NCBI GenBank assembly: GCA_022448315.1
Contig: JAKVCA010000002.1
Coordinates: forward strand, 3,149-67,148
DNA from: Pirellulaceae bacterium
GTDB taxonomy: Bacteria > Planctomycetota > Planctomycetia > Pirellulales > Pirellulaceae
Reading direction: 5' to 3'
DNA: 64,000 nucleotides
The position numbers and the translations under genes were made by a program. Shown here piece after piece: positions 47,914 through 54,922 of the stretch (the stretch's first letter is position 1; each line of letters starts with the position of its first letter). The notes below the pieces were generated by a model. It saw only the letters and a list, made by a program, of their open reading frames with translations, had not been told where the DNA came from and searched no databases.

Positions 47914-49002
47914 TTAGGCGGCCTTTGCGTTTTGGCTTCGAAGTTGCTCCCAGTTTTCTGCAGGCATGGCCATGCAGAGTTTTAATGCTCCGGCTGCACC
48001 TGCATACAGGCAGTCATTGACGCGAGTGACCTTGCCGCCACCCAGCTTCTCAACGCCGGTTTCGAGAAGTCGATCCAATCCTCGAAGTTGGCTTCCACCG
48101 CCTCCGAGGAGGATGTTGCCTCGCAACTGGGCCTGAAATTCCGGATCCGACATGGCGACCGTTTTGTGGATGCCCTCGATAATCGGCTCGACAAGGACTC
48201 GGCAGGCGTCTCGAATGATGTCCGTAATGTCAAATTCGGTTGGGACTCCCTCGACGGGCATGACGACCACCGCCCGCTCCTGATCGTCTGAGACCGTTCC
48301 AAATTTTTCCTTGAATTGGCGAGCCATGTTGAGCGTGACTTGAGCGTCGGGATGAGCCTGTTGGATCAACGACAAAAGCTCCCGATCGACGGCGTCTCCC
48401 CCGACCGATGCTGAGTATTGTTGGTCAGGTTTCGGGTAGGTTCCGAACATCGGGCAGACGTCGATCGTTCCCGCACCGATATCAACCACGAGGGTTCCAA
48501 CCAGATGACCGAATCCGTACGCAATGCAAAAAGGCTCAGCGACAATCATGACGGCATCGAAGTGAGGAGACGCGGCCTGCAGGATGACATTTTTGGCCTC
48601 GTCGGAAGCCTGAGAGGGTGCACCGATGACGGCGTACCGAGGTCCTGTTCCAAGTTCAACGCGTCGAACCACTTCACCCATGATTGACTTTGCCGCCTTG
48701 CAACGACGATTGACTTCGTCCGCCGAGAGACCTGCGGCGGAGGAGTCGGTGTACTTCAGGGCCCCACAGTCAAAAGGGCGGACGAGATTGACGGCTGTCC
48801 GGACTTGACCAATACGATCACCAAAGACCTCGTCGCATCCCAGCATCCCGCGGGCAATATGATCCTTGGGTAACCCGACTGCCGTCATGATGGAATCACG
48901 ATTTCCATTTGAGGCAACAATGGAAGTTTTGAAGGTGCCAAAGTCGATGCCAACACATTGCGGTTTGTTACTCATGAGAACGTCCTTGTTTTGGGCCGGC
49001 AT
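47914..49002 (-). CDS. MamK/MreB-like bacterial actin (362 aa)
   Basis: It has an actin-fold ATPase pattern: phosphate-1 CVGIDFGTFKTSIVASNG (16-33), PKDHIARGMLGCDEVFGDRI, LVRPFDCGALKYTD, YAVIGAPSQASDEAKN, phosphate-2 LVVDIGAGTIDVCPM, and adenosine motif NILLGGGGSQLRGLD. The PKDHIA-GCDEVFGD segment and overall length match MamK, the magnetosome filament actin, more closely than MreB. No magnetosome genes are visible, so a role in positioning another envelope or membrane structure is more likely. The start codon overlaps the upstream stop (TAATG at 49004-49000), indicating translational coupling with the coiled-coil membrane protein; an internal ATG at 48975 with an AAGGA box is the alternative start. 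Confidence 0.88.
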   Translation of the reverse strand: MPAQNKDVLMSNKPQCVGIDFGTFKTSIVASNGNRDSIMTAVGLPKDHIARGMLGCDEVFGDRIGQVRTAVNLVRPFDCGALKYTDSSAAGLSADEVNRRCKAAKSIMGEVVRRVELGTGPRYAVIGAPSQASDEAKNVILQAASPHFDAVMIVAEPFCIAYGFGHLVGTLVVDIGAGTIDVCPMFGTYPKPDQQYSASVGGDAVDRELLSLIQQAHPDAQVTLNMARQFKEKFGTVSDDQERAVVVMPVEGVPTEFDITDIIRDACRVLVEPIIEGIHKTVAMSDPEFQAQLRGNILLGGGGSQLRGLDRLLETGVEKLGGGKVTRVNDCLYAGAAGALKLCMAMPAENWEQLRSQNAKAA

Positions 49003-50012
49003 TAGCTGGCCTTATTTGAAAGGTTCAGGTTGTCTTGGAGAATCTGAGCCATGAGCGCAGAATTCACTTCCTGTTTCTGTTTTTTCTCGTCACGATGCTG
49101 ATCCGAGAAGGTCTCAAATGACAGAATCGTTGCAGAGTCGTCCGTACTGAGGTCAATATTTGGGGCGAGTGGTTCGGGGATTTCCTCCTGTTGGCTGACA
49201 GGAAGTGGTAAAACCGTCGCCCCTGCTTTGGCGTCTTCGTGCGGCCATGCGAGGCCACGGGTTCGACGAGGACGCAGTTCGGAAGATTCCGGCATGTATT
49301 GTTCGGGAACGGTAGTCGGGACATGCTGCGGTGGAGCTGTGGGACGATCGAGGTGGCTCGCGCGACTAAGACCCAGTCGGTATGCGCTCAAGGTCAAAGC
49401 GAATAACGAAACCAGAAAAGCGCTGAGGGTCAGTGTCAACCAAGGAACCGCGCTGGACTGCAACGGGGAGCTCGTAGGAGTGATCTGGGCTTCCGGACGA
49501 GGAATACCCGGAGCGAGATGAGATATCGACGACGCGACGGTGCCTGAAGAGACACTCTGCGAAGGGGTTTGCGATACCGATTCGATGCGTTGTGAAAGTT
49601 GGCGGATGTCTTGAAGGTTCGAATCCAGTTTCTGCTCGATTGAATTCCATTTTGCTTGCGCTTCGGAAACTCGGGAGGCATCAATGGAGCTCTGGATCAA
49701 CGCCTGCAGTTCCTCCATCCCCAAGAATTCGATTGACTCTCCCGATGGCGTGAGCGTGCCCGAATTGGGATGAAGGTCATAAGCCGGTTGACGGGCGGTT
49801 GACCGAGGTGGGTTCAAGGGTTCCAGGGCGGGGGCCGGGGCGGTTCTTGCGACCCCGGTTAAACCATCGATTCGGTCTCGCCGTTGTTTTCCGCGGATTT
49901 CGATCAATTGCAAATGATCCGTGCCCAACATTTGCTGCTGGCCTACAACCGTTTCTGGAACGGAGACGATGGCAGAAAGAAAAAGGCAGATAACCGTAGC
50001 CTTTGTCCACAT
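49002..50012 (-). CDS. Membrane protein with coiled coil, coupled to the MamK-like actin gene (336 aa)
   Basis: I recognise no family. Residues 1-27 form a signal peptide or anchor (WTKATVICLFLSAIVSV). The next 80 residues are Pro/Arg-rich and polar. From about 108 to 160 an acidic/Gln-rich helical stretch (EELQALIQSSIDASRVSEAQAKWNSIEQKL...) looks like a coiled coil. A transmembrane segment follows at about 193-213 (WLTLTLSAFLVSLFALTLSAY), then a 120-residue charged, Pro-rich cytoplasmic tail ending MAQILQDNLNLSNKAS. The stop overlaps the actin start by one base. A GTG at 50063 with a GAGGG box is an alternative start. The layout suggests a membrane anchor for actin filaments; this is inference. 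Confidence 0.6.
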   Translation of the reverse strand: MWTKATVICLFLSAIVSVPETVVGQQQMLGTDHLQLIEIRGKQRRDRIDGLTGVARTAPAPALEPLNPPRSTARQPAYDLHPNSGTLTPSGESIEFLGMEELQALIQSSIDASRVSEAQAKWNSIEQKLDSNLQDIRQLSQRIESVSQTPSQSVSSGTVASSISHLAPGIPRPEAQITPTSSPLQSSAVPWLTLTLSAFLVSLFALTLSAYRLGLSRASHLDRPTAPPQHVPTTVPEQYMPESSELRPRRTRGLAWPHEDAKAGATVLPLPVSQQEEIPEPLAPNIDLSTDDSATILSFETFSDQHRDEKKQKQEVNSALMAQILQDNLNLSNKAS

Positions 50013-50510
50013 GATGGTGATCCACACGATGTTCAGGCGGCGTGACAAGGACGAACGGGGCACAACGCCCTCGAAGGCACAACAATACTTAAGTCACCAT
50101 CGTCGACGGGCAGAGCCAACTTCACTCGGGCCGGATAGATCCACGAAGATGCAAGCCGTTTGCCCCAACTGCTAGCTAGTTGCGAAGAAACTCACGTCGG
50201 ATTGGCCAAAGGCTGTAAATCATGGCTGCCCCTTGTCGTGATTGTGCCTGAAGTCCTCTATTCTTAAGGTCGAGCCATGAGGACCATGAAACCCAATTGG
50301 GAAACGAAGCCCCGGATTGGAATGAGCTCTAGAGCGCTACGCGAGCAAGCATTGAGGCGAGGAGAATTCCACTCGCCAAGGGGAACCCAAAAGAATCGGA
50401 AAACAGACTCCAGTTCGAAGGAACATCAGGCCCTTGTCTTACCCGCATCGACCCGGCCGAAGCGTGTTTGAAAAACCGGCTCTCCCGCGTAATCGACTTG
50501 AGATCAGTTC
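50013..50510. other. Divergent intergenic region, 498 bases
   Basis: The region lies between the coiled-coil membrane protein (minus) and the glycosyltransferase (plus). A 64-codon plus-strand frame at 50277-50471 is Arg/Lys/Ser-rich without motif or ribosome site. It must hold both promoters. No hairpin with a T-tract was found. Confidence 0.5.
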
Positions 50511-51306: not shown

Positions 51307-52032
51307 CTAAAATGAAGGCGGAGTCGGGTCCTGCGAGGCCATTCGTGTGGCTGACTCCTGAGCCATCAGGCAAAGTCTTTGTGTGCTGCTGATTTTCTCA
51401 GTCGCTTGCCCGTCCACGTTCGCTTCAGAGGCCATCTGCAACTGACGAGAGGCCTGCTCAATTTCGCCATTTTCGAGGTAAGCGACCGCAAGATTGCAAT
51501 GGGCCTCAGATTCCGAAATGCCCGAATGGAAAAACTGAACGATTGCTTCGTGTTCACGTCCTGTTCGAGCTAAAAGCAGACCGTAGTTGACTCGAGTACG
51601 AGGGTCTTCTGCTGCGAGTTGAATGGCTTTCTGAAATGCAGCTTCCGCTGGCTCCCATTGCTCCTGAAGATAGAGACTATATCCCAGGTCATTCCAGACC
51701 GTAGGTTGGTCGGAGTCGAGTTCGAGGCTTTTCCGATAGTTGTTCGAGGCCTCTGCGGCACGACCCAGTTGGTCCTGCATGAGGCCGAGGCGGTGCCACG
51801 CTTGAGCATGCTTAGGATCGAGCTCGGTGACCTTCTGGTAGGCGAGAATCGCGTCCGAGAATTCTGCATTCCGTTCCGCTGATTGTGCCAGCGCAAACTG
51901 AATTTCAGATTTTTGCTGTAGTGAGCGGTTCGCTGCGGTCTTGCTTCCGGATGGAAGCATGGCGCAACCGAATTGCGTGCACGCCACGCCGAGCAGAAGG
52001 GTAACAACCGTTTTGATGGGTAGCGGGCACAC
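51307..52032 (-). CDS. TPR-repeat envelope protein, possibly a lipoprotein (241 aa)
   Basis: A GTG start with an AGGAAG box 8 bases upstream begins a hydrophobic segment (residues 8-24, ending CTQFGCAM). Cys23 could be a lipidation site. Then come at least four tetratricopeptide repeats of 34 residues: FSDAILAYQKVTELDPKHAQAWHRLGLMQDQLG, AEASNNYRKSLELDSDQPTVWNDLGYSLYLQ, WEPAEAAFQKAIQLAAEDPRTRVNYGLLLA, HEAIVQFFHSGISESEAHCNLAVAYLE. It is a scaffold likely in the periplasm, similar in layout to TadD or PilW/PilF-type lipoproteins that help secretins or pili assemble. It follows the exported 221-residue protein by 69 bases and the secretin further upstream, all in the same direction. Confidence 0.82.
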   Translation of the reverse strand: MCPLPIKTVVTLLLGVACTQFGCAMLPSGSKTAANRSLQQKSEIQFALAQSAERNAEFSDAILAYQKVTELDPKHAQAWHRLGLMQDQLGRAAEASNNYRKSLELDSDQPTVWNDLGYSLYLQEQWEPAEAAFQKAIQLAAEDPRTRVNYGLLLARTGREHEAIVQFFHSGISESEAHCNLAVAYLENGEIEQASRQLQMASEANVDGQATEKISSTQRLCLMAQESATRMASQDPTPPSF

Positions 52033-52101
52033 AGCAAACTTCCTGAGGGGAACATTGACCCGGGAACGTTACATGAGGTCCCAATCAGCGTCAACGGCGT
52101 T

Positions 52102-52767
52102 TCACGGACCGATTCCGTCCCAAATGCTGGAAGGGCCCTTGCTTCGGGAAGGTTCGCGATCGCTCCTGTGGGGCACGTTGGGCCGAACTTGCTTCATCCA
52201 GATCGACTGAGCTTCAACCCCGTCCAGGCCAGGGGTTTGCGGGTGACCGATGTCGACCATGAACGCCTCTGCTTCGAATCCAAGTTCTTTCAGTCGTGAG
52301 CTGACCTCAGCTTGTCGCTGTCGGTCCAGCGTATTCGAAACTCCGGAGGGCTGAATCGTGATGGGAAGGCCTGCAGGAATGGCGGTTGATGCGATCTTCT
52401 GAAGTTGATATCGCCCACGAAAATTCAGTTTTGCAGATCGAACATCCTCGAAATCGTACCGGTAAAGGACCAGCCGATCCGCTACACCATTCCACTGTTG
52501 TGTATGCAGCAAATACTGGGTGTAACTACCAAAGGGTCGCTGATAAGAGTGGTTCCCGTAACTCCAGTGCCGGTTATGCAGGATTGGGTTAGCTTTGACG
52601 CCCAACCAGGATTCAACACGCCCAAACACGCCCGCCCGGTGCATCATTTTCCCGTTGACGTTTTCGTCGCAGTTGGGAGCGATGGGGCGGATCTCTTGAG
52701 CGTGCAGCATGGTGACGCCGCCAAAGAGAACTGCCAGTAATGCTTGAGTGAAAGATTTCGTGACCAC
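52102..52767 (-). CDS. Exported protein of unknown family, downstream of secretin (221 aa)
   Basis: The GTG at 52767 has an AAGGAA box 9 bases upstream and begins a signal peptide (residues 5-24, ending TMLHAQ). I recognise no family. The N-terminal region is polar with His/Tyr/Trp-rich sequence (NPILHNRHWSYGNHSYQRPFGSYTQYLLH). The middle has LYRYDFEDVRSAKLNFRGRYQLQKI. The C-terminal part has an SPOR- or BON-like look (RQAEVSSRLKELGFEAEAFMVDIGHP) but no certain match. It lies 70 bases after the secretin gene and 69 before the TPR gene, and may be an accessory protein of the same envelope system. Confidence 0.65.
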   Translation of the reverse strand: MVTKSFTQALLAVLFGGVTMLHAQEIRPIAPNCDENVNGKMMHRAGVFGRVESWLGVKANPILHNRHWSYGNHSYQRPFGSYTQYLLHTQQWNGVADRLVLYRYDFEDVRSAKLNFRGRYQLQKIASTAIPAGLPITIQPSGVSNTLDRQRQAEVSSRLKELGFEAEAFMVDIGHPQTPGLDGVEAQSIWMKQVRPNVPHRSDREPSRSKGPSSIWDGIGP

Positions 52768-52837
52768 GACATGGGTTCCTTGGGCCGGACAGTACAACAG
52801 GCGATTAAACGGGTGGTCTAACGGTTTGGCCAAAAGG

Positions 52838-54619
52838 CTACCTGTAGCCTTGAGTGATGGCTTCTATTTGAGGTATGCCGGGAGGCGATGGCATGTTTGA
52901 CGGGCGCGATAAATCAGATTGCATCGTGGAATTGCTGAAACCTGATGGGCCCGAGACGTGTGCCCTTTCCAACGCGTGATGAGATCTAAGGTTGAGCGGA
53001 TCATCCCAATTGGCCGTAGGTCGAACCGAACGTCCAAGCCGACTCTCAATTCGATTCAGCAGATAAAACTCGAAGTCTGATGGCGGAATGACTTCGGAAC
53101 CCGGCAGTGGCCCCAGTTGATCGGAAGACATGCCGTTCACCACGTAGGGCGTCACCAGAACCACCAGTTCCTGCTCGCGTTGCTCGCTGCTGGCGTTGGA
53201 AAACAAAGGGCTCAGATACGGCGCGTCTCCCAAGATCGGGATCCGTTTGGTCGAATTGGAAGAGAACTTGTCGAGTAACCCTGCAAGAGCGAGGGTCTGA
53301 CCCTCACGAAGTTCAACGGTCGTCGACGCCGATCGGGAACGGAAGCCGGGAACGGTTCCGTCTCCCAGTTCGCGGTCCACCGAACTGACTGTCGGTGCGA
53401 CTTGCAAGCGGATGATGCCGTCGTCAAGGATGTTCGGTGTGAACTCGAGCTGGACGCCAAACGGTCTGAATTCCGAACTCGGCGCCCCTTGGGTGCCGAG
53501 CAACTGATAGCCAACTTCACCGCCAACCAGGAAGCTGGCCATATGGCCATTCATGGCCACCAGATTGGGTTCCGACAAGACCGTGGTCACACCGTTGGTT
53601 CGAAGTGCCTTGAAGCTCGCCTGAAAATCCCCATTTTCAAAGATCGCGATGTTGCCCCCGGATTGCCCAAGCATGTACGTCAGGAAACTCCCTGAACCCG
53701 TCGTGATCTGGAGGTCCGCGCCGATCTCACGCAGTGCGGTTCGGTTCAGCTCCGCAATCACCACCTTCAGCATGATCTGCTGGGAGCCCGGAACTTTGAG
53801 AAGATTGATGATCTCCGGTTGGACTTGGTGACGACCACTCTTAACCCAACCGAGTTGATCTTTTCCAAACGCAAGGCCCTGCTGCAGGGCTGAGGCTGCT
53901 ACGGCATCTGGTGCGTCCGAATTTGGTTCCCCGACGCCCGGAACTTCGCCACCTTCCAACAGCGTTTTCCGCTGTTGTTGTAGCGCCATGGAGACGGCAT
54001 AAGCGCGTAAAGTTTCGATGATTCGATTCACCTGAAAACTGCTTCGAGCTTGGCCTTCGACCACAATGTGCTCGCGCAATTGGCCCAATCTGATCAACGC
54101 ATCGGGGTAAAGCTGTTTCAGTTGAGCTTCGACAAGTTGAAGGTCGTACCCGACGTTGATCTGGTAGGCGAAGGTCTCGCCATCCGCGGTCACGAATGAG
54201 AGATCGGTCACTCCAATCCGTTTTCCAACGATGCGAATCAGTTGAGGGCCGAGGACATCAAAATCGATTACGGTTGGGTCAGCAACACCGATGACGGCCA
54301 CACCTTCTGCCGAAGCAATCGGCTTTTTGGTGGTGATCAACCGCGACTGACCGTAAACCACTTGGATCGAGGCGTCACTGCCTTTGATGGAGTCAATGAA
54401 ACTGGACGTCGGCGCCTGATCGAAACTCGATCGCTCTCGCCGCATCGGAACTTCCGCAGATTCCATCTGTCTCGGAGGAAGTGTTTGGATCGTGTTGGAC
54501 GTCGACCGCACTTGGGGCTGGACCCGTTGCGGCACGATCTGCCCAACCACTTGTTCAACAAGCAGGCAGAACGTCACCACCATTAGGAGCGGAACGGTCG
54601 TCTTCCAACGTAGGCTCAT
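52838..54619 (-). CDS. Type II/III-type secretin, CpaC/RcpA-like (593 aa)
   Basis: The signal peptide is at residues 9-27. A CpaC/RcpA-type N-terminal domain follows (VVYGQSRLITTKKPIASAEGVAVI, then VIDFDVLGPQLIRIVGKRIGVTDL). A BON-like region follows at about 160-190 (VEAQLKQLYPDALIRLGQLREHIVVEGQA). The secretin core has QIMLKVVIAELNRTALREIGADL, VLSEPNLVAMNGHMASFLVGGEV, EFTPNILDDGIIRLQVAP, VELREGQTLALAGLL and RIPILGDAPYLSPLF. Its C-terminal tail (about 100 residues) is Pro/Ser-rich. It would form the outer-membrane pore of a Tad/Flp-type pilus or type II-like system. An AGGGA box 8 bases upstream supports the ATG at 54619. It is followed by the exported unknown and the TPR gene; no ATPase or TadB/C gene is in the window. 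Confidence 0.9.
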   Translation of the reverse strand: MSLRWKTTVPLLMVVTFCLLVEQVVGQIVPQRVQPQVRSTSNTIQTLPPRQMESAEVPMRRERSSFDQAPTSSFIDSIKGSDASIQVVYGQSRLITTKKPIASAEGVAVIGVADPTVIDFDVLGPQLIRIVGKRIGVTDLSFVTADGETFAYQINVGYDLQLVEAQLKQLYPDALIRLGQLREHIVVEGQARSSFQVNRIIETLRAYAVSMALQQQRKTLLEGGEVPGVGEPNSDAPDAVAASALQQGLAFGKDQLGWVKSGRHQVQPEIINLLKVPGSQQIMLKVVIAELNRTALREIGADLQITTGSGSFLTYMLGQSGGNIAIFENGDFQASFKALRTNGVTTVLSEPNLVAMNGHMASFLVGGEVGYQLLGTQGAPSSEFRPFGVQLEFTPNILDDGIIRLQVAPTVSSVDRELGDGTVPGFRSRSASTTVELREGQTLALAGLLDKFSSNSTKRIPILGDAPYLSPLFSNASSEQREQELVVLVTPYVVNGMSSDQLGPLPGSEVIPPSDFEFYLLNRIESRLGRSVRPTANWDDPLNLRSHHALERAHVSGPSGFSNSTMQSDLSRPSNMPSPPGIPQIEAITQGYR

Positions 54620-54922
54620 CAAAGTCCCTGAAGGTCGCTGGTTTTGATTTTGGCGATCGATACTCAATATTCACGTACGATGTGGGGGGTAAATTCCCGC
54701 ATCATCGTTGCTATCGTCAAAACGAGAACGAGGGCTGAACCGATCTTTCTAATTAATTGGCCGAACCACCGATATAATCCGAAAATGCTCGACTTTTGGC
54801 CCAGAAAATTAACATGCCAAGGTGATGCTAGCATTGCCAAATCCGGCTTGAATTGGACTCAAGCTGCGATTGATGGGAGCGTGGGGAGTGGCCTGATCAA
54901 AGTGGTCTGATTGGGGGGGTGG
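54620..54922. other. Intergenic region, 303 bases
   Basis: The region lies upstream of the secretin gene and downstream of the esterase gene on the same strand. A perfect TATAAT occurs on the plus strand (54773-54778) without a -35 box or downstream plus gene. No supported gene or terminator. Confidence 0.5.

Follow-up and report, generated by a model that had tools for sequence, protein, structure and literature searches.

A MamK-like actin and its tail-bearing membrane partner beside secretin genes in a planctomycete

What might a MamK-like actin hold, and by what means, in a planctomycete where no magnetosome cluster surrounds it? This question is raised by the window analyzed here, a 64,000-nucleotide stretch of contig JAKVCA010000002.1 from a Pirellulaceae bacterium (all coordinates below are window positions). 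Actins of the MamK kind form filaments that align the magnets of magnetotactic bacteria. How MamK is linked to its cargo outside magnetospirilla is itself an open question. MamJ is seemingly missing there, and a 2023 study has proposed that MamJ-like interactors have been overlooked (PMC10653835). Homologues of MamK are already known from bacteria that are not magnetotactic (PMC7449369; PMC11929497). Planctomycetes also have an unusual cell biology, and MreB is dispensable in Planctopirus limnophila (PMC6952346).

The gene pair and the placement of the actin

Two neighboring minus-strand open reading frames, 47914-49002 and 49002-50063, have one base in common. The TAATG overlap that a sequence-only reading had pointed out is indeed present at 49000-49004, but the translational coupling proposed along with it has been dropped as a likely arrangement. 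The overlapping ATG at 49002 is probably not the start of the actin, and Met10 (48975) is preferred, because homologues of about 40-53% identity begin in the alignment at the equivalent of Met10 (MSNKPQC, MSDQVVY, MSGKEVF, MSNSITF) and because a putative Shine-Dalgarno site precedes this codon (Table 1). With the Met10 start, the intergenic gap is therefore 26 nt, and the two genes are probably co-operonic without stop-start coupling. For the membrane protein, the ATG at 50012 is the most likely start, with an in-frame GTG at 50063 as the other candidate. The extent first given for the partner locus, to 50012, matches this ATG. The conserved tail helix and the genes at 51307-54667, which form part of the neighborhood, had been overlooked.

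Table 1. Features of the actin locus, in window coordinates
Feature	Position	Strand	Basis and remarks
MamK-like actin	47914..48975	minus	353 aa from preferred start Met10; overlapping in-frame ATG at 49002 is the alternative
Putative Shine-Dalgarno site AAGGA (probable)	48983..48987	minus	7 nt 5' of Met10; read directly from the sequence
Membrane partner, proposed adaptor	49002..50012	minus	336 aa; signal or anchor, variable Pro/Ser-rich region, coiled coil, one TM segment, probable cytoplasmic tail
Conserved tail motif LMAQILQDNLNLSN	49014..49055	minus	Consensus [IML]LxxIFxxNLxLR; profile test; proposed actin-binding helix
TM segment, residues 192-210	49383..49439	minus	Hydropathy; AF2 helix 191-218, pLDDT 85-89
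Predicted coiled-coil helix, residues 112-147	49572..49679	minus	AF2, pLDDT about 77-80 in core
TPR protein, PilW/TadD-like repeats	51307..52032	minus	Pfam/NCBIfam; near actin in window, L032-L035, L041, L137, L139
Probable exported protein	52102..52833	minus	No Pfam/NCBIfam match; near actin in window, L032-L035, L041, L042, L137, L140
Secretin with pilus-type N domain	52838..54667	minus	PF00263 2.7e-40; PF13629 1.5e-9

The actin belongs to the MamK branch. Its best family in NCBIfam is MamK (332.5 bits), compared with 172.8 bits for BeeR and 66.7 and 56 bits for MreB, and it lies below the curated cut-offs of all three (400 bits for MamK NF040964, 530 for BeeR NF053558, and 293 and 365.75 for MreB NF010539 and TIGR00904). 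The Pfam MreB_Mbl match passes (67.3 versus a gathering score of 27) and is a generic one. In a phmmer search of the PDB, the actin matches MamK at 4.7e-58, BeeR at 4e-33, and MreB at 1e-12, and its AF2 model (pLDDT 91.7) fits the MamK filament structure 5ljv with a Z score of 42.7, an rmsd of 1.5 Å, and 34% identity, versus Z scores of 40.0 for BeeR and 34.6 for MreB. Residues of the ATPase site are conserved among the homologues (G9, D11, G13, E147, D165, G167, G169, G292, and G293 are invariant), and the alignable core starts by residue 8 of 353, without the N-terminal extension of 30-50 aa that is typical of BeeR. Neither Pfam nor NCBIfam gives a ParM family match, and PilM (PF11104) has no match to the actin in Pfam at E<=0.1. 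That the protein is an MreB, a BeeR, or a PilM is ruled out by the Pfam and NCBIfam scores.

Phylogeny places the actin similarly. In a tree of 70 rows, it falls in a Planctomycetia clade (100/100) that is nested within the MamK-like actins of Planctomycetota, and the magnetosome-cluster MamK proteins of Nitrospirota and Desulfobacterota form a separate clade (100/99). In another tree, for which MreB of E. coli and ParM served as outgroups, ParM R100 is a very long branch outside the MamK-like set, and branches of such length make that tree unusable. The resemblance to MamK over MreB that had been read from short segments is thus upheld by far higher profile and structure scores, and the actin nests with MamK-like actins, which sets it apart from ordinary MreB and probably also from the StbA/ParM groups. 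The earlier remark that no magnetosome genes are seen also holds: MamP, the one magnetosome marker searched, falls below its cut-off in this genome, and the window neighbors tested around the actin are unrelated to a magnetosome cluster.

When this genome is searched with an MreB profile, the actin is the top match, and the three other matches sit in much longer open reading frames. Within the window's family, MamK-like actins have a scattered distribution (21 of 199 genomes, or 11 of the 144 good ones), and they are common in the phylum, where 90 of 392 genomes have one above the MamK cut-off.

The partner protein and its C-terminal tail

Hydropathy and AlphaFold bear out the architecture first proposed for the protein encoded upstream of the actin, namely a hydrophobic N-terminus serving as signal or anchor, a coiled-coil segment, one TM helix, and a charged tail. 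AlphaFold predicts helices at residues 112-147, 191-218, and 300-335. Outside these helices the AF2 model is of low confidence and mostly disordered, and the last of them is the most confident part (pLDDT 84-97). The C-terminus is probably cytoplasmic, because an Arg/His-rich stretch follows the TM segment.

Conservation of the partner was examined at 21 close-clade loci (the window, L032-L044, L136-L140, L155, and L188). All 21 encode a protein with one TM segment and a tail directly upstream of the actin, and in most of these proteins a signal or anchor can also be recognized, along with a Pro/Ser/Gln-rich region that varies. The earlier reading was to be refuted by a tree placing the actin in ordinary MreB or StbA groups or by a missing membrane-protein gene beside it in relatives; both points were checked, and neither overturned it. 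For most of their length these partners resist alignment, and the C-terminal helix is the exception that they share. In an alignment of eight rows, the only invariant residues are Asn328, Met1, and Pro19, the last of these lying in the poorly alignable N-terminal region. The window partner has no tblastn match at E<1e-2 among 20 loci and nothing above cut-off in Pfam or NCBIfam, so whole-protein homology is ruled out as the cause of the tail conservation. Most partners across the phylum have no TM segment and have only the C-terminal helix in common; the description of the partner as a membrane protein therefore stands for the close clade but not for most of the phylum.

The tail motif is readable at all 21 close-clade loci, with LMAQILQDNLNLSN in the window, ILQQLFEDNIELRR in L032, MLSQIYQHNLRLRD in L036, and MMKHIFQQNIELRD in L155 as examples. 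A 14-mer profile trained on 12 close-clade partners was used to scan the last 60 residues of 3,923 open reading frames on both strands of 40 other MamK-like actin loci, and nearly every top match was the same-strand gene next upstream of the actin. A scan of 80 named loci had the same outcome. Pooling the sets gives 56 upstream genes with at least 15 bits, versus 12 of 5,725 control open reading frames (Fisher p 4e-93, a value that is indicative only, since the loci are related by descent and may still include a few near-duplicates, so that independence is overstated). Some of the 12 control matches are themselves genes with the tail that lie at other positions of these loci, and the upstream tails of L100, L102, L118, and L124, which fall below the threshold, have the pattern by eye. 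Chance as the source of the motif is ruled out by the train-and-test scan and the pooled control comparison.

The tail reaches well beyond the close clade. It lies upstream of mamK at loci with MamB/MamM-type or MamP genes (L173, L184) and in a Nitrospirota MAG (L187), and it is present in the magnetotactic planctomycete L171 (MAG_11118_pl_115; PMC7449369) and at actin loci of Omnitrophota and Beggiatoa-type bacteria. In Methanoperedens, it is found just downstream of the actin on an Arch_fla_DE protein. Its carriers differ widely and include signal-and-TM proteins, GGDEF (2.6e-17), Arch_fla_DE (4.6e-17), and PAS proteins, and coiled coils. Several individual arrangements can be recorded here. 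Two or three tandem tail copies occur in one protein in the partners of L113, L098, and L102 (GGGLLAGLVRENQALR...), an arrangement that suggests multivalent filament binding. In L171, two successive tail-motif proteins precede the actin, and the one adjacent to it has a PAS domain. In Methanoperedens L181 and L183, the MamK-like actin is followed by a coiled-coil protein, which in L181 combines Arch_fla_DE with a terminal tail motif.

Given the varied carriers and the tandem copies, the tail behaves as a short linear motif with a common ligand, for which the actin is the shared candidate. The tail helix is probably the grip between MamK-like filaments and their cargo, to judge from its pattern of occurrence. 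A broader proposal, for which we consider the chances about even, is that MamK-family actins generally hold their cargo through the [IML]LxxIFxxNLxLR helix, in Planctomycetota, Omnitrophota, Beggiatoa-type Gammaproteobacteria, Methanoperedens archaea, and magnetotactic Nitrospirota, Desulfobacterota, and Planctomycetota. This helix would then be the overlooked equivalent of MamJ outside magnetospirilla. Different lineages would have set it on anchors in the membrane beside secretins, on GGDEF, PAS, and archaellum-type domains, or in tandem repeats, so that differing cargo hangs on one kind of filament. No description of the shared tail was found in the open-licence full texts searched, and an earlier description elsewhere is possible.

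Other kinds of partner were encountered at MamK-like actin loci. In a paralogous Planctomycetia clade of 35-40% identity (L045-L051, L119-L122), the partner gene lies downstream of the actin and its tail is degraded (N to T/S), and the neighbors include, by eye, beta-barrel-like, C39-peptidase-like, and small secreted proteins. A second conserved tail, approximately GxKKI...PPPLxRK, is carried by the gene upstream of other MamK-like actins (L142, L144, L157, L163, L170, L177); it is clearest in L142, L144, L157, and L170, and the three carriers tested have no Pfam match. At L205, L210, L215, and similar loci, an Amidase_3 (N-acetylmuramoyl-L-alanine amidase) gene directly upstream replaces the tail partner. 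Such amidase-linked actins come from Acidobacteriota, Nitrospirota, Desulfobulbaceae, and others, with three of the amidases confirmed by Pfam and the rest recognized by similar C-termini. Within the close clade, a large caspase-like membrane protein is encoded downstream of the actin in L040 and L044, and L040 has a TssM-like gene upstream as well (both by eye).

Secretin genes nearby and a possible tethering role

A secretin gene is found near the actin pair in 10 close-clade loci (the window, L032-L035, L041, L042, L137, L139, and L140), mostly together with the TPR gene, the gene of no known family, or both, and in co-directional, divergent, and downstream arrangements. Of these loci, L139 comes from a cultured relative, Limnoglobus roseus PX52. 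In the other 11 of the 21 loci, no secretin was found within the available sequence, some of the contigs being short. The window's genome as a whole has nine secretin matches and a single copy of the protein encoded at 52102..52833. No Tad motor or pilin genes are among the window neighbors tested, and ATPases of the motor type are located elsewhere in the genome. Beyond the actin and its partner, no further neighbor is conserved across the phylum, where most partners have no secretin beside them. The secretin link is real and common, though not obligate.

The reading we favor, to which we assign a probability of roughly 0.55 as a whole, is that a membrane-tethered filament of the MamK type, held by the C-terminal helix of an adaptor, docks or positions a secretin-based envelope complex. 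The family placement, the conservation of the partner, the linkage of the tail motif to MamK-like actins, and the secretin neighborhood are observed, and from them we infer that the actin polymerizes and that the tail binds it, as well as the topology and the docking role. Points against this reading are the 11 close-clade loci without a nearby secretin, the many partners in the phylum that have neither a TM segment nor a secretin neighbor, the downstream partner with a degraded tail in the paralogous clade, and the actin score below the MamK cut-off. The actin would polymerize into a filament of the MamK type that lies against the inner membrane on its cytoplasmic side. Its cognate adaptor, the product of the upstream gene, would be exported via its signal sequence and would have one TM helix in the inner membrane. 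Its flexible, coiled-coil part would lie outside, and its disordered tail would lie inside and finish in an amphipathic helix. This helix would bind the actin and thereby tether the filament to the membrane, which is probable because of the analogy with MamJ/Mg-1g50, arcadin-2, and ParR. The genes for MamJ and Mg-1g50 lie immediately upstream of mamK and act together with it (PMC10653835), the C-terminal helix of arcadin-2 binds the groove of crenactin, and ParR binds that of ParM (PMC5173319). The external portion of the adaptor, or proteins in contact with it, may join the filament to an outer-membrane complex of the secretin, the 52102..52833 protein, and the TPR protein, so that the filament would dock or position the secretin-based complex in this lineage.

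The same genes could instead belong to a divergent machine for type IV pili or type II secretion and encode its alignment subcomplex, in which the actin stands in for PilM, no long filament is formed, and the other parts are a PilN/O-like bitopic protein, a PilW-like TPR protein, and a PilQ-like secretin. PilM, too, binds a bitopic protein by its cytoplasmic tail, which is the same logic as that of the proposed actin-tail pair. The gene set, with its pilus-N-domain secretin and a TPR protein that has a PilW-like score of 72.9 bits, mirrors PilM-N-O-P-Q/PilW and is linked in 10 loci. We nevertheless regard this arrangement as unlikely, given that the actin lacks a PF11104 match and has the filament formers MamK and BeeR as its nearest relatives, that the actin-tail pair is found with no secretin conserved beside it through most of the phylum and also in magnetosome clusters, and that pilin and motor genes are absent among the window neighbors tested.

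Other alternatives concern the tail itself. It might act as a regulator that, like arcadin-2, occupies the hydrophobic groove of the actin and sequesters or depolymerizes subunits, with the membrane part sensing the envelope. The layout of its C-terminal helix does resemble that of arcadin-2, whose last 17 residues depolymerize crenactin (PMC5173319), and the GGDEF- and PAS-domain partners hint at sensory inputs. However, the MamJ-type partners encoded beside mamK are tethers (PMC10653835) and the tandem tail copies fit multivalent filament binding, which makes regulation a distinctly unlikely role. Conservation by itself does not reveal a ligand, and in most loci the tail coding sequence lies just before the actin start, so the tail could conceivably be kept as a degradation signal, for dimerization, or by a DNA-level constraint near the actin ribosome site, with no binding between the proteins. 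The presence of the tail in genes located downstream or at a distance (L181, L045, L051) and as internal tandem repeats, where a DNA-level constraint fails, and its tracking of MamK-like actins across phyla make any such cause very unlikely.

For the tethered filament, then, the original idea of a filament-anchor pair serving an envelope structure remains a good reading and is strengthened by the nearby secretin genes, but the claim to novelty of a MamK-like actin outside magnetosome clusters does not survive (PMC7449369; PMC11929497; the genome counts above). The actin is a member of a broad MamK-like group that is already known; what is new is the variant with a membrane-anchored adaptor and a secretin link. 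A short conserved tail that is found in magnetosome clusters as well makes the MamK-cargo question testable with a peptide, and it offers a plausible common mode of action for many MamK-like actins in nonmagnetic bacteria. The locus also suggests that planctomycetes have a secretin complex tethered by an actin.

Comparison with known systems

The locus resembles the secretin module of Tad and type IV pilus systems in having a secretin with a pilus-type N domain and a TPR protein nearby, and it differs in that motor and pilin genes are missing among the tested window neighbors and in that the actin is not a PilM. As in the MreB-RodZ system, a bitopic membrane protein is paired with an actin as its (here proposed) tether. 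RodZ binds MreB through an N-terminal cytoplasmic HTH domain, whereas the window partner would use a C-terminal helix, and its actin is not an MreB. We know of no TM anchor in MamJ or Mg-1g50, unlike the window partner. Those proteins can be likened to it by position and description, each being encoded directly upstream of mamK, poorly conserved in sequence, and a tether or proposed tether (PMC10653835). The crenactin-arcadin-2 pair likewise has a partner from the same cluster with a conserved C-terminal helix, but it involves another actin family and arcadin-2 depolymerizes its actin (PMC5173319).

Among the actins, BeeR of Verrucomicrobiota (PDB 8r2n; PMC11929497) is also a MamK-related protein outside magnetotaxis with a similar fold (Z 40.0), but the window actin scores 173 bits versus the BeeR cut-off of 530, has no N-terminal extension of 30-50 aa, and is distant in the tree. 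From MamK (5ljv/5jyg; NF040964), the window actin is set apart by its score of 332 versus the 400-bit cut-off, by a window without a magnetosome cluster, and by a partner that is a signal-and-TM protein rather than MamJ. It shares with MamK the fold, the ATPase residues, 33-34% identity, and an adaptor gene immediately upstream, and the magnetosome-cluster mamK loci in this survey bear the same tail motif.
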